From Acidobacteriota bacterium (GTDB lineage Bacteria > Acidobacteriota > Terriglobia > Acidiferrales > UBA7541): a stretch of DNA of 51,902 nucleotides. Below are positions 41,140-51,637 of this stretch, in pieces. Where the stretch lies: assembly GCA_003225295.1 (NCBI GenBank), contig QHYZ01000073.1, forward strand, positions 1 to 51,902, read 5' to 3'. The position numbers and the translations under genes were made by a program. Positions within the stretch are counted from its first letter, which is position 1. Each line of letters begins with the position of its first letter. The notes beneath the pieces are model-generated. The model was not told the origin of the DNA. It did not search any database and was given only the letters and a program-made list of their open reading frames with translations.

Positions 41140-41377
41140 ACAAAGAGGGTTTTCCCTGGCGGCAGGGACCGCCGCAATGACCGACAAATCTTTCTGCTGG
41201 AATGGACCGATAGCTTAATTCTGACTGATGGCGTTCGCCTGGGGTGCGTACATGAACGACGGAAAGAAGCGACTTTATCTGGAACTAGGAAGGGCTCCGA
41301 TCCATCTGTCCGAGATGGTTCGGCGTCAGGAATCGCACGCTCGTTTCACTGACGACCTCCGAGAAGGGAAACTAAAT

Positions 41378-43459
41378 ATGCTGTTCAATCGCAACCCCGG
41401 GAGCCGGCCGGCAACGCGCCTTGGGCGTATTTTCTTGGCCGGTTTCCTCGCAGTTGTCGTTGCGGCCACCACGGTGGCCCAGACTTCACGGAACGTTCCC
41501 GACGTCACTGCCATGAGCATGGAAGACCTGATGAATATGCAGGTAACCTCCGTCTCTAAGCGCACGCAAAAAGTGGCAGACGCCGCGGCCGCGATCTTCG
41601 TGATAACCCAAGAGGATATTCGACGTTCAGGAGCAACGAGCATTCCTGAAGCACTGCGAATGGCTCCTGGCCTTCAAGTGGCTCGAATTGACGAGAACAA
41701 ATGGGCCATTGCTTCGCGTGGCTTCAATGGGCGCTTCGACAACAAACTGCTGGTTCTGATTGACGGCCGAAGTGTCTACACGCCTCTGTTTTCCGGTGTG
41801 TATTGGAATGTCCAGGATGTGATGTTGGAGGATGTGGACAGGATCGAAGTGATCCGCGGCCCGGGAGCAACTCTGTGGGGAGCCAATGCCGTCGACGGGG
41901 TCATCAATGTCATCACTAAAAAAGCGAAATCCACTCAGTCCACCGTCGTGACGGCAGGAGCCGGAACGGAGGAGCGAGCAGCTGGCGGCGCTCGCTATGG
42001 CAGCAAGCTGGGCGACAACACCTACTACAGAGCTTACGCAAAGTACTTCGATTGGGGGCCTTCAGCATACCCATCGGGTATGACAGCGCACGACGGGTGG
42101 GATGCCTTGCGCGGAGGATTCCGCGCGGATTGGACACCAACCGGAGCGAATTCGCTGACGCTGCAAGGAGATATATACCGCAGCAGATTTGATGAGACTC
42201 TGACCGTGGCGTCGTTATCTCCCCCCTATTCGAACACCTTCCCCAATGACGGGAAATACAGTGGAGGAAACCTTCTCGGCCGTTGGAATCATACTTCCGA
42301 AAGATCTTCGATGTCGCTGCAGATGTACTATGACAATACCACCATCAACGACCATTCTCTTTTCGGGGACCATCAAAACATATTCGACATCGACTTCCAA
42401 CATGCCTTTCACACCGGGGATTCACAACAATTCGTATGGGGCTTTGGTTATCGCTCGATCCGTGACAAGAACGACCCCAGCTTTACGGTTTCCCTCCAGC
42501 CTAATCAAGTCACTCTCAATCAGTTCAGCACATTCCTTCAGGATGAAATCAGCCTGGTTGACAATCGGCTGCAGATCACGCTGGGATCCAAATTCGAGCG
42601 CAACGGGTTCACCGGGTTTGAAGTTGAGCCTAACGCCAGATTGCTCTGGACCGTCACACCAAATCAATCGATCTGGACTGCAGTTTCACGCGCTGTCCGA
42701 ACTCCGGCCCTGACCGAGGAGGGCTTGCGGCTGAATTCAGCAGTTATACCCCCGGGGACGCTCTCGAACCCCACGCCGTTGCCGGCGGTGCTGGCGGTTT
42801 TCGGCAGCCCACAGTTTAATTCCGAAGACCTTCTCGCGTACGAGCTCGGTTATCGAGTGCAGGCAACCAGCAACCTTTCGCTCGACCTAGCAACCTTTTA
42901 CAACAATTATTCAGGCCTTCGTACCGCCGAGCCGGGTGTCCCTTCTGCAGAACCGCTCCCTGCCCCGACTGATATTGTCATCCCCTTTGTTGCCTCCAAC
43001 AAAATGAGCGGTGGAACTTACGGTGTCGAACTGTTTGCAGACTGGAAAGTCGTTCCCAAGTGGAGGTTGGCGGCCTCCTACAGCTATCTGCAAATGAACA
43101 TTCACAAAAACGCCGACAGTCAGGATCCGACTCCCGACAATCCGAACGGCTCAAGCCCTCGTCATCAATGGTATTTGAGATCTTCGGTCGACTTGCCCAA
43201 GCATTTTGAGCAGGACACCACGGTTCGATTTGTGGACCACCTTCCCAGCTTGAACTTCGCGGGAGCAGTCGGAGCGCTGCCCAGTTACTACTCTTTAGAT
43301 GCACATTTGGGCTGGAGACCGGTTACCAGCCTGGAATTGTCGATCGGCGGCCAGAATTTGCTGAATAACTGGCACTTGGAATTTTTGCCGGACTTCGTGC
43401 TTACCTCCCCGACGGCGGTAAAGCGCAGCATTTTTGGAAGTATTACTGTGAAATTCTAA
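41378..43459 (+). CDS. TonB-dependent outer-membrane receptor (693 aa)
   Basis: The start at 41378 gives a proper signal peptide (IFLAGFLAVVVAATTVAQ); an earlier in-frame ATG (41252) would add an unlikely 42-residue leader. A short segment, MEDLMNMQVTSVSKR, leads into the plug domain: AAAAIFVITQEDIRRSGATS, PEALRMAPGLQVARID, VLIDGRSVYTPLFSGVYW and VDRIEVIRGPGATLWGANAV, with DGVINVITKKA closing it. A 22-strand barrel follows (SKFERNGFTGFEVEPNARLL, LEYELGYR-like LLAYELGYRVQ) and ends in Phe (SITVKF), as expected for BAM recognition. The next gene encodes a YfiR protein and then a kinase; receptors with this type of neighbour are thought to take part in signalling as well as uptake. The ligand is unknown. 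Confidence 0.94.
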   Translation: MLFNRNPGSRPATRLGRIFLAGFLAVVVAATTVAQTSRNVPDVTAMSMEDLMNMQVTSVSKRTQKVADAAAAIFVITQEDIRRSGATSIPEALRMAPGLQVARIDENKWAIASRGFNGRFDNKLLVLIDGRSVYTPLFSGVYWNVQDVMLEDVDRIEVIRGPGATLWGANAVDGVINVITKKAKSTQSTVVTAGAGTEERAAGGARYGSKLGDNTYYRAYAKYFDWGPSAYPSGMTAHDGWDALRGGFRADWTPTGANSLTLQGDIYRSRFDETLTVASLSPPYSNTFPNDGKYSGGNLLGRWNHTSERSSMSLQMYYDNTTINDHSLFGDHQNIFDIDFQHAFHTGDSQQFVWGFGYRSIRDKNDPSFTVSLQPNQVTLNQFSTFLQDEISLVDNRLQITLGSKFERNGFTGFEVEPNARLLWTVTPNQSIWTAVSRAVRTPALTEEGLRLNSAVIPPGTLSNPTPLPAVLAVFGSPQFNSEDLLAYELGYRVQATSNLSLDLATFYNNYSGLRTAEPGVPSAEPLPAPTDIVIPFVASNKMSGGTYGVELFADWKVVPKWRLAASYSYLQMNIHKNADSQDPTPDNPNGSSPRHQWYLRSSVDLPKHFEQDTTVRFVDHLPSLNFAGAVGALPSYYSLDAHLGWRPVTSLELSIGGQNLLNNWHLEFLPDFVLTSPTAVKRSIFGSITVKF

Positions 43460-43514
43460 AGTTGATTGCCGGGTGAGCTCTCAGATTGCCCGCTACCAGT
43501 GGACGGTTAATTTG

Positions 43515-44105
43515 ATGTTGAGACGACTGGGAATTCTGATCGTGGCGCTCAGTGTTTCGCTGAGTTGGACTCCCGAGGCTTTCGCGCAGGCCCCGAACTC
43601 GTCCGATTCCTCGGAATATTTGATCAAGGCCGGCTTCATTTTCAATTTTGCAAAATTTGTCGAATGGCCGGCGACGGCTTTTGCCCAGCCCGATTCTCCG
43701 ATTGTGATTGGCATCCTGGGAACGGATCCCTTCGGAACGATTATCGATCAAATCGTCCAAAATAAGAAAATCGGAGCGCGGGGATTTGTCGTCAAACGGC
43801 TGAAATGGGGCACCGACGTCAAGGAGCTCAGGGAGTGCAAGATCCTGTTTGTGAGCGTGTCGGAAAAAGCGCACATCGATGAGGTGGTGCAAGCTGTAAA
43901 AGGCCAGCCAATTCTGACAGTCGGCGAAACGCCCGGTTTTGCCGAGCGTGGCGGGATGATTCGCTTCACCGTGGAAGACAACAGAGTTCGGTTCGAGGTC
44001 AATGTTGAGTCGGCGCACCAAGCAGAGCTGACCATCAGTTCAAGACTGCTAACCCTGGCGAGAATCATCCAACAACCCGCCGTAGAAGTGAGAAAGCCGG
44101 GATGA
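43515..44105 (+). CDS. YfiR-family periplasmic protein (196 aa)
   Basis: ATG 43515 gives a signal peptide (LGILIVALSVSLSWTPEAFA); a GTG at 43473 is an alternative with little support. The mature domain shows the family pattern: EYLIKAGFIFNFAKFVEWPA near the start, then IVIGILGTDPFG, ILFVSVSEKAHI, PILTVGETPGFAERGGMIRF and a final VNVESAHQAELTISSRLLTL. In Pseudomonas, YfiR is a periplasmic inhibitor of a membrane diguanylate cyclase and responds to redox state. Here the partner would be the hybrid kinase whose gene overlaps the stop by 4 bases (ATGA). No Cys is present in the mature part, so control by disulfides is unlikely. The role as sensor input to the kinase is inferred. Confidence 0.9.
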   Translation: MLRRLGILIVALSVSLSWTPEAFAQAPNSSDSSEYLIKAGFIFNFAKFVEWPATAFAQPDSPIVIGILGTDPFGTIIDQIVQNKKIGARGFVVKRLKWGTDVKELRECKILFVSVSEKAHIDEVVQAVKGQPILTVGETPGFAERGGMIRFTVEDNRVRFEVNVESAHQAELTISSRLLTLARIIQQPAVEVRKPG

Positions 44106-46165
44106 TCCTTCAGAATCTATCCATCAAGCGCAAACTCACGCTGATCATGATGCTGACGAGCAGCATCGCACTGATCCTGTCCTCGGTTGGCTTTCTTATT
44201 TATGACCTGGTCTCCTTTCGTCATCTGCTCACTCAGGATCTGATGACTCAAGCCGAGATTATCGGATACAACAGCGCGGGAGCTATGGAATTTAAGGACG
44301 AACCCGCCGCCACCGCTACACTGTCAGCGCTCACCGCCAAAGAAGACATCATCACGGCTGTCCTGTATAGACCCGACGGAAAGATCTTTGCTTACTATTT
44401 TCGAGGCAAGACGACCCTCCCGGCCTACCTTCCTTCCCATTTGCAGGGGAAAGGCTACCGCTTCAAAGCAGGATACCTGGAGGTCTTCCACGATGTGACC
44501 CTGAACGGGGAACGCGTCGGAACACTGTTTTTGCAATCGGACATGCGCCAGTGGAGTATGAGGGCCAGACGGTATGCGGGTATCCTCATTATTTTCGTCT
44601 TGGTTTCCGGGTTGTTCGCATTTTTCGTTTCTTCGAAGCTTCAAGGATTGATTTCAAACCCCATTCTGCACTTAGAAGACACCATGAGAATGGTTTCCAC
44701 GAACAAGAACTACGCCGTTCGAGCTGTTAAGTCTTATGGAGACGAAATTGGGAGATTGATCGATGGATTCAACACCATGCTGTCCGAAATCCAGCAGCGC
44801 GATACTCGACTGCAGAGCACTAACGGTGAATTGAAGACCAGGACACAGGAGTTAGAGGAAGAAATCTTTCATCGCAAACAGACCCAAGAAGAGCTCCTCA
44901 ACGCGAAGCATGCGGCCGAGGAAGCGAACCGCGCCAAAAGTACATTTCTTGCAAATATGAGCCACGAGTTGCGGACACCGCTCAATGCCATCATCGGATA
45001 TAGCGAAATGCTGGAGGAGGAAACCCGCGACTCGGGCAAGATCGAGAATGTTCAGGACCTCCGAAAAATCCAGGCGTCCGGAAAACACCTGTTGTCGTTG
45101 ATCAACGACGTGCTTGACCTTTCGAAGATTGAAGCCGGCAAGATGGTGCTCCACCTCGAGACCTTCGAAGTGTCACAGGTGATCGAGGAGATGGTCACGA
45201 CCCTGCAACCCGCCGCGGCCAAGAATGGCAACTCAATTCACGTCCAGCTGGCCAACAACGTGAACATGATGCGGGCCGATATCACCAAGGTCCGCCAGAT
45301 CCTGTTCAACCTGCTGAGCAACGCCTGCAAATTTACGGACCACGGCAGCGTCTCCGTGAACGTGGAGCAAATCAAGGTCGAGGATCGAGATTGGATTCAA
45401 TTCCAAGTCCGCGACAACGGGATTGGCATCTCTGCCAGGCAAAAGCAGAACTTGTTTCAAGAGTTTGCCCAGGCGGATGCCTCCATTGCCCGCAAGTATG
45501 GCGGCACCGGCCTGGGACTCGCCATCACTCACCGCTTCGTTCAGATGATGAAGGGGCAGATCGGCGTGGAGAGCGAGATTGGCCAGGGCGCCGTTTTTAC
45601 GGTCGGGCTGCCCGCCCAAGTCGTCATCGAGACGGCCGATTCCGCGCCGTCAGAGAGTGCCAGCAAACTGGCGGCGGTACCGGCGGAGACCAAAACCGGC
45701 TTGGAAACCATTCTGGTGATAGACGATGACCCATCGGTCCGCGATCTGATGTCGCGCTTCCTGACAAGACTGGATTTCCGCGTGGTGGCCGCCGCGAATG
45801 GAGAAGAGGGCATTCGCCTTGCCAAGCAATTTCATCCGCTGCTTATAACCCTGGACGTGGTCATGCCTGACTGCGATGGATGGACGGTTCTAAAGAAGCT
45901 CAAGAGCGATTCCGAGTTGGCGGAGATTCCGGTGATTATGGTCACCATCGTCGACAATGAGGCCATGGGCTTGGACCTGGGCGCCTCCAATTATCTCATC
46001 AAGCCGGTCGACCGGGACCGCCTGGCAGTTCTTGTTGAAAAGCACCGGGGCACTCGATCTTCCACCATCACGGATGACCATCCGCTCCCCTTATCTCGTG
46101 TAGCAGACCGCCAAGCAGACAGCAAGCCAGCCGTAATCAGAGTTTCTAGGACCAGGAGAAACTAG
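44102..46165 (+). CDS. Hybrid sensor histidine kinase with CHASE8-like sensor and receiver (687 aa)
   Basis: Domains in order: membrane helix 1 (about 12-34), periplasmic CHASE8-like sensor (about 35-155; [36 protein letters not shown]), helix 2 (158-180), HAMP (about 180-232), coiled coil (228-275), HisKA with His288 in [11 protein letters not shown], HATPase_c with [14 protein letters not shown] (N-box), DNGIGI and GGTGLGLAI (G-boxes), then a receiver domain with Asp585 ([12 protein letters not shown]) and Lys in LIKPVD. The chain ends in a basic unstructured tail. It overlaps the YfiR gene by ATGA, so YfiR is probably its periplasmic regulator. The response regulator genes follow within 1 base and by overlap, which implies one signalling unit. 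Confidence 0.94.
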
Positions 46166-46166
46166 A

Positions 46167-46544
46167 ATGCAGAAAATCTTGCTAGTCGAAGACAACGAAA
46201 TGAATAGGGACATGCTATCCAGACGGCTTCAGCGCCGGGGCTATTGTGTGGTCACCGCGGAGGATGGCGAAAAGGGACTATTGCTCGCGCGCTCGGAAGT
46301 ACCCGACCTCATTCTGATGGACATAAGTCTTCCAGCAATGGACGGTTGGGAAGTCACGCGTCTCCTGAAGGCAAATCAGTCTACTCGCCATATCCCCATC
46401 ATCGCTCTGACCGCTCACGCCATGGTCAGTGACCGGAAGAAAGCGATTGAAGCAGGTTGCGATGAGTACGACACCAAGCCAGTCGATTTTGCACGCCTGA
46501 GCGAAAAGATCGAAAATCTGATACTCGAGAAGAAACTATCATGA
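46167..46544 (+). CDS. Single-domain response regulator (125 aa)
   Basis: This is a stand-alone receiver: acidic pocket Glu8-Asp9 (LLVEDNEMNRDML), phosphoacceptor Asp52 (LILMDISLP), Thr in ALTAHAM and Lys in DTKPVD. There is no output domain, so it works as a phosphorelay shuttle or by protein contact, as do CheY- and DivK-like proteins. It lies 1 base behind the kinase gene and overlaps the next gene by ATGA. The segment EDNEMNRDMLSRRLQRRGY closely resembles the start of the next protein's receiver (DDNEMNRDMLARRLARKGY), so the two probably arose by duplication. Confidence 0.94.
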   Translation: MQKILLVEDNEMNRDMLSRRLQRRGYCVVTAEDGEKGLLLARSEVPDLILMDISLPAMDGWEVTRLLKANQSTRHIPIIALTAHAMVSDRKKAIEAGCDEYDTKPVDFARLSEKIENLILEKKLS

Positions 46545-48649
46545 ACCCTTGTACAAGCCGGTTGCTCATCGTAGATGACAATGAAATGAACAGAGATATG
46601 CTTGCCCGACGGCTGGCGCGCAAAGGCTACGAGATCGCAGTGACACACAGCGCGCACGATTTGCTCGAGCGCGTCAAACTAGACGGCACGGATCTGGTGC
46701 TATTAGACATCGAAATGCCGGAAGTTAGTGGCCTTGACGCGCTGAAAACACTGCGGGAGGCCTATTCTGCGATCGAGCTGCCGATAATTATGGTGACGGC
46801 AAAGAACCAGAGCGAGGATATTGTCAGGGCGCTGGACTTGGGGGCCAACGATTATCTGACCAAGCCGATTGACTTCCCGGTGGCCTTGGCGCGCATCGGT
46901 ACTCAGTTATCACACAAACGAGCGCAGGAAGCACTAAAGGAAAGTGAAGAGCGCTATGCTCTAGCGGCTCGCGGCTCCAATGATGGCCTTTGGGATTGGA
47001 ATCTGTCGGCCAATGTTGTGCACTTCTCTCCTCGCTGGAAGGCCATGTTGGGCTATCAGGAAGCCCAAATTGGGGACCGCCCTGAAGAATGGTTTGAGCG
47101 GATCCATGACGCGGATCGGGAACGAGTCAAAGAAGAGATTGCCGCCCATCAAAAAGGACTCACTCCTCATTTCGAAAGCGAGCATCGCGTACTGCATAAA
47201 GACGGAAGCTTCCGGTGGATGCTTAGCCGCGGGGTCGCTGTTCATGATACTTCCGGAAATCCTTTGCGCATGGCTGGATCGCAGACCGACATCACCGAAG
47301 GAAAAGTCTCCGACCCACTGACGGGCTTGCCCAATCGCCTGCTGTTTATCGACCGCGTCGGTCGGCTCGTTAAGCACACGAAGCGCCGCAAGGACCATTT
47401 GTTTGCGGTTCTATTCCTGGACCTTGATGGGTTCAAGATGATCAACGACGGTATGGGCCACCTGATTGGGGATCAACTCCTGCTAGGAGTAGCCCATCGA
47501 TTGGAGAAGTGTTTGCGGTCAACGGATACCGTCGCGCGTCTAGGGGAAACCTTCACGGTGGCGCGCCTAGGGGGAGACGAATTTACAGTCCTGCTCGACG
47601 ATATTAAAGATCCGGACGATGCCAAGCGCGCCGCGGACCGCATGATGAAGGCTCTGGCCGCGCCATTCATTTTGGGCGGGAAAGAGGTCTTCACTTCGGT
47701 GAGTATCGGAATTGCTCTGAGCACCTCGGCCTACGAACAACCGGAAGAGATGCTGCGAGATGCCGACACGGCAATGTATCGGGCCAAGGCCCTGGGCAAG
47801 GCCCGTTATGAGGTGTTCGATGCCGATATGCGCGCCAGTGTGATGGCTCGATTGCAGCTGGAGACTGATCTGCACCGCGCGCTTGAACGGGAAGAACTTC
47901 GCAATTTCTATCAGCCGATTGTTACTCTCGCCTCCGGAGAAATCGCCGGCTTTGAGGCCCTGTTACGATGGCAGCATCCGACTCGTGGCCTGCTCGGACC
48001 AATTGAATTTATCCCCGTCGCTGAAGAAACCGGACTGATCCGGGAGCTAGGTTGGTGGAATTTGCGGAAGGCCTGCCAGCAAATCAGTGAATGGAGAGCA
48101 GGTTCACTCGCCCATCGCCATCTATCCATTAGCGTTAACCTGTCCGCCAAGCAATTTCTACAGCCGAAGCTGGTTGAAGACATTAGAAACCTGCTGCATG
48201 AACTGGCACTTCCTGCAGAAGCTTTGAAGCTGGAGATCACGGAAAGCACGGTGATGGCAGACCCTTCGGCAGCCATCGAGATGTTGCAGCAAATTAAGTC
48301 CTTGGGCATACGCCTGGCTATCGATGACTTCGGTACGGGCTACTCTTCCTTGAGTTACCTTCACCGTTTTCCCCTCGACACACTAAAGATTGACCGCTCC
48401 TTCATCAGCGGCATGGGGGACGACGGAGAAGGTATGGAGATTGCCCGGACCATATTGCCCATGGCCAATAATCTTCGGTTGGACGTAGTTGCCGAAGGAG
48501 TAGAGACACTTCAACAGGTTGCCATGCTGAAAAAACTACAATGCAAATATGGCCAGGGATATTACTTTTCCAAACCGCTGTCCGCCGAGGGGACCGCGGC
48601 ATTATTGGCAGGAGACCTGACGTGGCAAGCGTGCGAGCAAACCAAGTAG
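46541..48649 (+). CDS. REC-PAS-GGDEF-EAL c-di-GMP turnover protein (702 aa)
   Basis: The N-terminal receiver has Asp56 (LVLLDIEMP). A PAS/PAC sensor (about 130-255; SEERYALAARGSNDGLWDWN, HRVLHKDGSFRWMLSRG) follows. The GGDEF domain (about 260-435) has an intact active-site motif at 344-348. The EAL domain (about 445-695) has Glu472-Ala473-Leu474 (FEALLRW), VNLSAKQF, LEITES and DDFGTGYSSLSYL (from Asp595). Both synthesis and breakdown of c-di-GMP are possible from intact motifs. The product-inhibition motif RSTD (326-329) is present but separated from GGDEF by 14 residues instead of 5, because of an apparent 9-residue duplication (TVARLGETF). Phosphorylation of the receiver by the upstream kinase would set the balance. 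No membrane segment. Confidence 0.94.
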   Translation: MNPCTSRLLIVDDNEMNRDMLARRLARKGYEIAVTHSAHDLLERVKLDGTDLVLLDIEMPEVSGLDALKTLREAYSAIELPIIMVTAKNQSEDIVRALDLGANDYLTKPIDFPVALARIGTQLSHKRAQEALKESEERYALAARGSNDGLWDWNLSANVVHFSPRWKAMLGYQEAQIGDRPEEWFERIHDADRERVKEEIAAHQKGLTPHFESEHRVLHKDGSFRWMLSRGVAVHDTSGNPLRMAGSQTDITEGKVSDPLTGLPNRLLFIDRVGRLVKHTKRRKDHLFAVLFLDLDGFKMINDGMGHLIGDQLLLGVAHRLEKCLRSTDTVARLGETFTVARLGGDEFTVLLDDIKDPDDAKRAADRMMKALAAPFILGGKEVFTSVSIGIALSTSAYEQPEEMLRDADTAMYRAKALGKARYEVFDADMRASVMARLQLETDLHRALEREELRNFYQPIVTLASGEIAGFEALLRWQHPTRGLLGPIEFIPVAEETGLIRELGWWNLRKACQQISEWRAGSLAHRHLSISVNLSAKQFLQPKLVEDIRNLLHELALPAEALKLEITESTVMADPSAAIEMLQQIKSLGIRLAIDDFGTGYSSLSYLHRFPLDTLKIDRSFISGMGDDGEGMEIARTILPMANNLRLDVVAEGVETLQQVAMLKKLQCKYGQGYYFSKPLSAEGTAALLAGDLTWQACEQTK

Positions 48650-48775: not shown

Positions 48776-49894
48776 ATGAAACTCGCTTGGCAAAATATCG
48801 TTCACGATCGCGCCCGCTTCTCGGTAACCGTGCTGGGTGTGTCTTTTGCAGTGTTCCTGATGGTCTTTCAAGGGAGTCTCCTGGCCGGTTTTTTGCGCGC
48901 AGCATCAAGGCTTATCGATGCTAGCGACTCGGACATCTGGATTACTGCGCGAGGCGTGCAGGCCTTTGAGTTTGGAATTCCCATCGAAGGCCGGCTGAGG
49001 GAGATGGCCGCCGGCGTACCAGGTGTCTTGGAAACGAGCCGAGTTTGCATGGCTTTTGCTGTGTACCGCACTCCAAACGGAAAGCAACAGGTTGTAGCCC
49101 TGGTCGGTGCGGACCGCAATGTAGGAAAGCGCTTCCCAGCTCCCGATGCCCATGGCTCGACCGAGGGGATGTCGCCTGATGCGATGCTCTACGACGTAAG
49201 CGACCGAGACCTGATTCAAGTGACGGCGCTGCCGACAGAAGTGGAGGTAAACCGGCACCGCGCCAGTATCGAGGGTCAGATCGAGGGTTATGGAGCATTC
49301 CTTGGTGTCCCCTTTCTGTTTACTTCCTACCGAAATGCGACTCGTTATCTGGCGTTTGGTCCTGAAGAGGCCATGTATGTCCTCCTGCGTGTCGACCGGG
49401 CACACTCCATATCGGACGTGCAGCAGAGCCTCAGGCAGCGTCTTCCAGAGGTTGATGTTCTCACGCGGGATGAATTTGCGAGTAAATCTCGCACCTACTG
49501 GACGATTAGAACCGGGGCGGGGGGCGCGATTCTAACCGCGGCGGTGTTGGGGTTTCTGATAGGTCTTGTGGTGGTATCCCAAACCGTCTATGCGAATACC
49601 ATGGAGAACATCGAGGAATACGCGACGTTAAAAGCTCTTGGAGCTTCCCACGCTTTTGTGGCCCGCATTGTGCTTACGCAGGCCCTTATTTGCGGGGCGC
49701 TCGGCAGTATTCTGGGGCTGCTTGCGGTTGTTCCAACCATTCGTTACGCAAAATCTCTGATTTCTTGGCTCTACACTCCCTGGTGGTTGCTCCTAGTCAT
49801 GGTCGTGCCAAGTTTGGCTATGTGCTCTTTGGCGTCGATTGCTTCCGTTCGCAGCGCCCTCACAGTTGAGCCGGGGAGGGTGTTCCGTGCCTAA
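48776..49894 (+). CDS. FtsX/DevC-like ABC transporter permease (372 aa)
   Basis: This is a permease with four membrane helices in the MacB/DevC layout: helix 1 at about 16-40 (FSVTVLGVSFAVFLMVFQGS), a periplasmic domain of about 200 residues, then helices near 250-272 (ILTAAVLGFLIGLVVVSQTV), 300-325 (LICGALGSILGLLAVVPTI) and 340-365. MENIEEYATLKALGASHAFV, between helices 2 and 3, is the FtsX-type coupling region. It is followed by the ATPase and adaptor genes, which together form a complete exporter. The permease gene is at the head of this operon, 127 bases after the c-di-GMP gene; whether the operons are joined is not clear. Substrate unknown; DevCAB systems export glycolipids in cyanobacteria, which is only an analogy. 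Confidence 0.92.
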   Translation: MKLAWQNIVHDRARFSVTVLGVSFAVFLMVFQGSLLAGFLRAASRLIDASDSDIWITARGVQAFEFGIPIEGRLREMAAGVPGVLETSRVCMAFAVYRTPNGKQQVVALVGADRNVGKRFPAPDAHGSTEGMSPDAMLYDVSDRDLIQVTALPTEVEVNRHRASIEGQIEGYGAFLGVPFLFTSYRNATRYLAFGPEEAMYVLLRVDRAHSISDVQQSLRQRLPEVDVLTRDEFASKSRTYWTIRTGAGGAILTAAVLGFLIGLVVVSQTVYANTMENIEEYATLKALGASHAFVARIVLTQALICGALGSILGLLAVVPTIRYAKSLISWLYTPWWLLLVMVVPSLAMCSLASIASVRSALTVEPGRVFRA

Positions 49895-50579
49895 CCACTT
49901 TCTGGGCGTCAAAGATGCGAGTATCTGGTTCGGCAAGCGGGAAGCACAAGTCCGTGCACTGCGGGGCGTTTCAGTATTTTTCGAGCGCGGCACGCTTTCG
50001 CTAGTTATGGGACCCTCCGGCAGCGGAAAAACGACCTTATTGTCTCTGCTGGGCTGTTTGTTGTCGCCCGATGAAGGGAGCGTGTTCCTAGAGGGTGAGG
50101 TGGTAAACGGACTGAATGAAGTAGAAAGGACAGTTGTTCGTCAAAAGAAAATCAGTTTTGTTTTCCAGGCGTTTCGATTATTTCACTCCCTCTCCGCGAT
50201 TGACAATGTCGCGCTTGGCTTTGAGCTTCGTGATGCAGCCCTGCCGGGTCGAATGAAAATGGCAAGAGATCTACTCATTCGATTCGGTTTGGGAGATAAG
50301 CTCAATCGCGAGCCCAACGAACTCAGTCCTGGCGAAAAGCAGCGGGTTGCCATTGCCCGGGCCTTGGCCGGAAATCCACCGATTCTTCTAGCGGATGAGC
50401 CGACCGCATCTCTGGATGCCCGAGCTGGAAAGAACATCTGTCAAATTCTTCGCAATCAAGTCGACGAGCACGGGAGAACTGTCGTTGTCGTTAGCCATGA
50501 TTCACGCTGGCGGGAATTTGCGGATCGCACCATCACTCTTTGCGACGGCCAAGTAGAAAAAGAGAAGGGGAGCCTATGA
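49887..50579 (+). CDS. ABC transporter ATP-binding protein, LolD/MacB/DevA type (230 aa)
   Basis: The GTG start at 49887 follows GGGGAGGG (49873-49880) and lies within the permease gene's last codons. Walker A is GPSGSGKTT, the Q-loop is FVFQAF, the signature LSPGEKQR replaces LSGGQQQR, Walker B is ILLADEP, the D-loop TASLDAR and the switch His is in VVSHDSRW. The Pro and Glu in the signature are conservative for this subfamily and should still work. It is coupled to the adaptor gene by ATGA. It powers the FtsX-like permease upstream. Confidence 0.94.
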   Translation: MPNHFLGVKDASIWFGKREAQVRALRGVSVFFERGTLSLVMGPSGSGKTTLLSLLGCLLSPDEGSVFLEGEVVNGLNEVERTVVRQKKISFVFQAFRLFHSLSAIDNVALGFELRDAALPGRMKMARDLLIRFGLGDKLNREPNELSPGEKQRVAIARALAGNPPILLADEPTASLDARAGKNICQILRNQVDEHGRTVVVVSHDSRWREFADRTITLCDGQVEKEKGSL

Positions 50580-51637
50580 CCGCCCGCAGCCGATGGGGCA
50601 TTGGTGGTTCCGCAATTGTCGTGGTCATTTTGGCTGTGGCGTTCTTGGGGACTACGCGGAGCAGGAATTCGGTGCAAGCTCGTGGGATACGCGCCGATAG
50701 TTCTGCCGCCACTGTTGCATTCGCCTCTCCCGGAAGGGTTGAGGGAGCTTCGGAAACCACGCAGGTAGGCGCTGCTGCAGACGGCATCCTGAAGGAAGTT
50801 TACGTGAAAGAAGGTCAGTTCGTTGAAGGCGGGACCTTACTTGCCGAGATCGCCTGTGACGAATTTCAAGCAAGTTTACAAACAGCCATAGCCGAAGCAG
50901 ATGGCGCACGCCAGACTAGGACGCGGATTCTGCGGGGCGCACGTGATGAGGAGAAGAAAATAGCGCTTGAAAAGACTGCCGCCGCCCGCGCGACATTTGA
51001 AGAGGCCAAGTCGCGACAAAAGATGCAGGGCGCCCTTTATCAAAAGGAGCAGATCTCCCGGGCCTCTTATGAGCAAACTGTCCGTGATCTCGGTGTCGCA
51101 CATGCTAACTTCCAAGCCGCTGTTCGAACTGCGGAGTTGCTTGCCGCACCTCCGTTGCAGGAGGAAAAGGCGCGAGCTGATGCAGAAGTGCTCGCGGCGG
51201 AGGGTCGCGTCCGAACGGTCCAGGAACGTATCGGGAAGTGCTCAATCCTTGCTCCAATCGACGGAACCGTTTTGAGGGTCTATGCCAGACGCGGTGAATC
51301 CTTTAGCACCATCACTCCCCGCCCACTATTCAACATTGCGGATACTTCCTCTCGGCACATTAAGGCGGAGATAGACGAAAGAGATGTAGATAAAGTGTCG
51401 ATCGGACAGAAGGTAGTTATCCAGGCAGACGCTCTTGACGGAAAGTGGCTCAACGGCTCGGTCGTGAGAATATCTGCCATGATGGGTAGGAAAAGCATCT
51501 CCACGGGCGATCCATCTGACAAGAGCGACCGCGATATCCTGGAGGCGGTGATCGGCCTAGAGGATAATGCTCCGTCATTGCCAATAGGCCTTAGAGTTAC
51601 GGTGCAGTTTTTGACGAACAGTTCGTCAAAAAAATAA
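50576..51637 (+). CDS. Membrane-fusion (adaptor) protein, HlyD/DevB type (353 aa)
   Basis: ATG 50576 overlaps the ATPase stop (ATGA) and has GGGGAG upstream. The N-terminal membrane anchor is residues 8-27 (IGGSAIVVVILAVAFLG). A lipoyl-like half-domain follows (AADGILKEVYVKEGQFVEGG), then a long coiled-coil hairpin at about 95-215, the second lipoyl half (CSILAPIDGTVLRVYARRGE) and a beta-barrel region (KAEIDERDVDKVSIGQKVVI, LPIGLRVTVQFL). The protein would bridge the permease to an outer-membrane channel, but no TolC-like gene is in the window, so the channel must be encoded elsewhere. With this gene the exporter operon (48776-51637) appears complete. Confidence 0.93.
   Translation: MTARSRWGIGGSAIVVVILAVAFLGTTRSRNSVQARGIRADSSAATVAFASPGRVEGASETTQVGAAADGILKEVYVKEGQFVEGGTLLAEIACDEFQASLQTAIAEADGARQTRTRILRGARDEEKKIALEKTAAARATFEEAKSRQKMQGALYQKEQISRASYEQTVRDLGVAHANFQAAVRTAELLAAPPLQEEKARADAEVLAAEGRVRTVQERIGKCSILAPIDGTVLRVYARRGESFSTITPRPLFNIADTSSRHIKAEIDERDVDKVSIGQKVVIQADALDGKWLNGSVVRISAMMGRKSISTGDPSDKSDRDILEAVIGLEDNAPSLPIGLRVTVQFLTNSSSKK

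Follow-up and report, generated by a model that had tools for sequence, protein, structure and literature searches.

Gene cluster and displaced motif

The window, meaning the whole stretch of 51,902 nucleotides that was analyzed, encodes a Rec-PAS-GGDEF-EAL response regulator preceded by other signaling genes (Table 1). A TonB receptor, a YfiR-like protein, a CHASE8 kinase, and a receiver are found at 41228-46544, upstream of the Rec-PAS-GGDEF-EAL output, and this arrangement matches the TOL_0243-TOL_0244 module of NCBIfam. The first three proteins all score above the curated cut-offs of the NCBIfam models for TOL_0243, TOL_0244, and the YfiR-like-associated kinase. For the output protein, only the general GGDEF model TIGR00254 is above its cut-off among the best 25 of 125 rows.

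The gene order is widely shared among orthologs of the response regulator. It was compared in 12 of 15 ortholog loci (L008, L009, and L015 were omitted). The kinase is present in 11 of the 12, the exception being L004, in whose short flank it was not found. Six of the eight loci with long flanks have the full order of five genes. In L178 and L180 the kinase was matched only in part, and neither of the upstream genes was detected in the stretch. Following the response regulator in the window, at 48776-51637, are genes for an ABC permease, an ABC ATPase, and an HlyD-like secretion protein, named from their translations only. ABC permease matches lie next to the regulator in seven of the 12 ortholog loci examined.

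Table 1. Features of the locus. Positions are nucleotides of the window unless amino acids (aa) are indicated.
Feature	Position	Strand	Evidence
TonB-dependent receptor, TOL_0244 family	41228..43459	+	NF053590, 696 bits, cut-off 645
YfiR-like periplasmic protein (DUF4154; TOL_0243 family)	43473..44105	+	Pfam; NF053591, 169 bits, cut-off 125
CHASE8-HAMP-histidine kinase-receiver, YfiR-like-associated family	44102..46165	+	Pfam; NF053592, 228 bits, cut-off 194
Single-domain receiver	46167..46544	+	Pfam; adjoins the Rec-PAS-GGDEF-EAL gene in 12/12 ortholog loci examined, of 15
Rec-PAS-GGDEF-EAL response regulator, 702 aa	46541..48649	+	ORF and Pfam
Response_reg; PAS_3; GGDEF; EAL	9-113; 160-246; 257-421; 443-679 (aa of the 702-aa protein)		Pfam
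Candidate DgcR-type secondary I-site Arg in helix alpha0 (model residue 25)	47384..47386	+	Invariant (R29 of ortholog alignment); place inferred from residue ranges and DgcR numbering
RSTD, primary I-site motif RxxD	47516..47527	+	R and D invariant in 14-row ortholog alignment
TVARLGETF, 9-residue insert; low-confidence loop in model	47528..47554	+	Sequence, ortholog alignment, AlphaFold2
TVARL of second copy, predicted strand beta2	47555..47569	+	AlphaFold2 strand 81-87; canonical control strand 73-78
Second copy as a whole, TVARLGGDEF	47555..47584	+	
GGDEF active-site motif	47570..47584	+	Sequence, Pfam
Arg presumably equivalent to PleD R390 (model residue 110)	47639..47641	+	Invariant (R114 of ortholog alignment); R in 42/42 insert-bearing domains

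The inhibitory site (I-site) motif of the cyclase domain lies farther from the active site than the usual spacing. Both catalytic domains are well above their cut-offs (GGDEF, PF00990, 150.7 bits, cut-off 23.8; EAL, PF00563, 264.5 bits, cut-off 31.3). The GGDEF domain has the GG(D/E)EF motif and, upstream of it, FxxDxDxFKxxND and GHxxGD, which we take to be signature patterns of this domain. RxxD is placed five residues upstream of GG(D/E)EF in one source (PMC5549716). The window protein departs from this rule, with 14 residues from RSTD to GGDEF. A sequence-only reading had described RSTD followed by TVARLGETF and then TVARLGGDEF, with RxxD displaced by nine residues, and its coordinates agree exactly with the sequence. 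It had also reported that the copies differ in several third positions. The TVARLG copies are identical at 15 of 18 bases, and all three mismatches are at third codon positions. A 9-residue gap in this stretch is needed in every one of the five PDB alignments listed, of which two are with variants of one protein.

Age and distribution of the insert

The presence of the insert in all orthologs supports the view that it is an old trait of the subfamily. The ortholog search covered 61 genomes including the window's own, all of which had some match. Orthologs with 65-92% identity over at least 544 residues are found in 15 genomes besides the window's own, one of them cut by a contig end. The insert is present in all 15, with a length of 9 residues in 13 and 11 residues in two (L005 and L016). 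Since these orthologs come from other genomes, an assembly error is ruled out, and so is recent slippage, given the divergence of the codons. Another 27 distinct insert-bearing domains are found in other proteins. The earlier suggestions that the insert is not recent and may be a subfamily trait are borne out.

The first copy is under roughly average constraint for this domain. The window and 13 orthologs (all but L009 and L015) were aligned over the domain in 14 rows. The RxxD Arg and Asp, the R390-type Arg, and the helix alpha0 Arg are invariant in this alignment, and the same holds for RxxD and both of these arginines across the 15 distinct ortholog domains included in the profile-based count described below. 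In the first copy, Thr 77 and Arg 80 (A1 numbering) are also invariant in the 14 rows, and the GETF portion is variable. Over 91 pairs of 14 sequences with the 9-residue insert, pN/pS is 0.24 for the whole insert, 0.16 for TVARL of the first copy, and 0.30 for the loop, compared with 0.04 for TVARLGGDEF and 0.14 elsewhere in the domain.

Inserts at this point are found in many other GGDEF domains. Loci were pooled from four kinds of search: the ortholog search together with loci found by place; a scan of named genomes with the ortholog alignment (at least 80 loci among 598 relatives); a phylum profile search (30 loci in 396 genomes), whose alignment holds the insert; and a Pfam GGDEF search (30 loci, best matches, in 121 relatives). 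Removal of exact duplicates and of rows with missing key columns left 164 distinct domains in a profile-based count; eight of the loci L001-L172 have no counted row, among them L113, which is the window itself. Between RxxD and GGDEF, 42 of the 164 have 3-20 extra residues and 122 are canonical, counts that are not frequencies because sampling follows likeness to the window and is enriched for inserts. By source, the insert-bearing domains are 11 of 11 (L001-L012), 10 of 20 (L013-L032), eight of 79 in the named genomes (among the matches listed), 13 of 28 in the phylum search, and none of the 26 best matches of the Pfam search. Among the matches listed, the named records with inserts are from Acidobacteriales (L042), Acidobacteriaceae (L047), Phycisphaeraceae (L058), Rubrivivax (L067), Pelobacter (L070), Litorirhabdus (L072), Burkholderiales (L083), and Pseudoduganella (L098, with only 3 residues). 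The insert-bearing domains rule out a repeat unique to the window protein. L042, L047, L120, and L126 are more distant GGDEF proteins with inserts of 15-19 residues at the same point. A quick tree built without the insert has seven changes of the insert trait, only one of which is forced by supported branches. No account of an insert between RxxD and GGDEF was found in the titles and abstract openings of the papers listed by literature searches.

The insert may have originated by an ancient duplication of the strand. Both flanks of the loop are TVAR-like by a simple regular expression in 32 of the 42 insert-bearing domains, which fits an old duplication. The resemblance of the copies in the window exceeds chance, yet part of it is expected from the sequences, because TVAR-like residues are common in GGDEF domains both after the I-site Asp and before GGDEF. 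The possibility that the insert re-forms RxxD at the canonical position was rejected; the four residues there are GETF in the window protein, and RxxD occurs at this place in only one of the 42 domains. This domain, L142 (G287:C84), has a 7-residue insert and carries RxxD twice, as RPSD at the helix and as RASD at canonical spacing before GGDEF.

Predicted structure and I-site residues

The window domain departs from the spacing rule in sequence, but the structural model suggests that it probably does not do so in space, with RxxD displaced along the chain only. The GGDEF domain was modeled with AlphaFold2 from a 68-row alignment (the window and 67 of the 80 named-genome loci), and L033, a domain with canonical spacing, was modeled from the same 68 sequences as a control. 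The window model has a mean pLDDT of 94.4. Its helix 50-69, before strand beta2, terminates at the RxxD Arg (residue 69), and the corresponding control helix spans residues 50-67. Residues 71-80, which include the RxxD Asp (residue 72), have a mean pLDDT of 59 and no secondary structure. The strand at 81-87 is FTVARLG, the second copy, and in the control the strand IVARLG (73-78) directly follows the Asp. In both models the helix stops at or close to the RxxD Arg, suggesting that the Arg is in its usual place, that the second copy is beta2, and that the first copy bulges out. The sequence-only reading had named, as evidence that would refute it, a structure prediction placing RSTD in the normal position despite the insert, and this holds for the Arg at the helix end and not for the Asp in its low-confidence stretch.

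The model has the ordinary GGDEF fold and resembles several known cyclases. The 50 best structure matches listed have Z scores of 21.3-25.4. The best is YfiN/TpbB (7a7e, 4iob), for which 160 of the 173 model residues align to 4iob with Z 25.4 and rmsd 1.6; matches within 1 Z are tied. YfiN also works with a YfiR protein. Its periplasmic sensor is part of the cyclase, whereas in the window CHASE8 is on a separate kinase. The same fold is found in PleD (Rec-Rec-GGDEF; 1w25, 2v0n, 9g86; Z 24.4, rmsd 1.4, and 160 residues aligned for 9g86_A), which is receiver-controlled, and in DgcR (Rec-GGDEF; 6zxm, 6zxb; Z 22.0, rmsd 1.8, and 157 aligned for 6zxm_A), neither of which is known to have a PAS or EAL domain. 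RxxD and the R390-type Arg are common to PleD and the window domain. Unlike the window protein with its 14 residues, PleD has canonical spacing, with R359/D362 and GG(D/E)EF at 368-372 (PMC12943098). The spacing is canonical in DgcR as well, with D209 in the motif and E218 as the fourth residue of GGDEF (PMC8041772).

The window domain has RxxD and candidates for its partner arginines. The window Arg at model residue 110 presumably corresponds to PleD R390, as matched by eye to the PleD sequence. RxxD is described as necessary and not sufficient for an I-site, with a second arginine required (PMC3838380). In PleD the I-site arginines are R313 and R390, and in DgcR the role of R313 is filled by R163 in helix alpha0 (PMC8041772, PMC12943098). 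The place of PleD R313, judged by residue ranges, is model residue 22; the window domain has His there, and orthologs have His, Gln, or Tyr, not Arg. By residue numbering only, DgcR R163 falls on residue 25 or 26, both of which are Arg, and residue 25 is invariant in orthologs.

The retention of these residues speaks against a relaxed I-site. Without correction for relatedness, 41 of 42 insert-bearing domains have RxxD (the exception, L058, lacks the Arg), as do 110 of 122 canonical ones. The R390-type Arg occurs in 42 of 42 and 70 of 122, respectively, and an Arg at 22 or 25, no commoner with the insert, in 35 of 42 and 109 of 122. With orthologs excluded, RxxD is found in 26 of 27 insert-bearing domains and the R390-type Arg in all 27. 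The counts are non-independent; for the insert and the R390-type Arg there is one independent pair on supported branches, and there are seven on all branches. The enrichment of the R390-type Arg may reflect lineage rather than a link to the insert, since its share among canonical domains differs between sources, with 14 of 15 from the phylum search, 44 of 71 from the named genomes, and 10 of 26 and two of 10 from the other two. Retention is not proof of c-di-GMP binding, because YfiN keeps RxxD and does not bind c-di-GMP (PMC3838380).

Product inhibition and receiver control

The insert looks like an ordinary variant, not a broken brake. We consider it fairly probable that it is an old loop of variable length that joins the I-site helix, with the RxxD Arg at its C-terminal end, to strand beta2 in a GGDEF domain that is ordinary in other respects. 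The second copy would form beta2 and present GGDEF, and the first would bulge beside the I-site. The inhibitory pocket for c-di-GMP, consisting of RxxD, the R390-type Arg, and the helix alpha0 Arg, would most likely still form, and product inhibition of the cyclase would probably be kept, perhaps with changed affinity. Primary control would come from the N-terminal receiver, phosphorylated by the CHASE8 kinase of the operon under its YfiR-like periplasmic partner. Counting against this explanation are the place of the Asp in a low-confidence stretch, which makes the pocket geometry tentative, the non-Arg residues of orthologs at the PleD R313 position, the finding that Arg at 22 or 25 does not become commoner with the insert, and the non-independence of the retention counts.

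The same observations bear on whether the insert breaks or strongly weakens the I-site, leaving a cyclase that escapes product inhibition and answers only to the receiver. The distance of 14 residues instead of five, the poorly predicted Asp and loop, and the R313 position of orthologs are consistent with this alternative, but the invariance of RxxD and the R390-type Arg in orthologs, their near-universal presence in insert-bearing domains, and the unmoved Arg-bearing helix make it unlikely. The earlier proposal that the insert may uncouple product inhibition is not supported, given the place of the RxxD Arg at the helix end in the model and the invariance in orthologs of RxxD, the R390-type Arg, and the helix alpha0 Arg. 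It is less likely still that the loop is an added regulatory element that tunes feedback through contacts with c-di-GMP at the I-site or with the Rec, PAS, or EAL domains. The purifying selection on TVARL of the first copy and its invariant Thr and Arg point in that direction, but the GETF residues vary, the insert is 9 or 11 residues long in orthologs and 3 to 20 in other domains, and the loop has no confident structure in the model. A broader version, in which the loop between the I-site Asp and beta2 would have arisen by strand duplication and would serve GGDEF-EAL proteins as a recurrent, evolvable control element that tunes or gates product inhibition in a receiver-controlled bifunctional enzyme, is similarly doubtful.

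The conserved operon of YfiR-like protein and CHASE8 kinase makes receiver control of the protein plausible, with no need to invoke the insert. Family names and gene order suggest a likely path from a periplasmic signal through the YfiR-like protein and the CHASE8 kinase to the receivers and c-di-GMP turnover. The idea that regulation had moved to the receiver is possible insofar as the receiver and the conserved kinase/Rec operon exist, but nothing ties receiver control to the insert.

The spacing rule used alone would score insert-bearing domains as lacking an I-site. In this insert-enriched sample, 42 of 164 domains are off-spacing and 41 of the 42 have RxxD, and therefore calls based on spacing only would miss I-site motifs. 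If the loop does tune feedback, these domains would offer naturally occurring variants of graded length for probing communication between the I-site and the active site. Four domains (L019, L020, L021, and L022) have inserts of 18-19 residues and an altered active-site motif, HGDEF or GGDKF, with RxxD kept, and they are candidate non-cyclase sensors of c-di-GMP or GTP.
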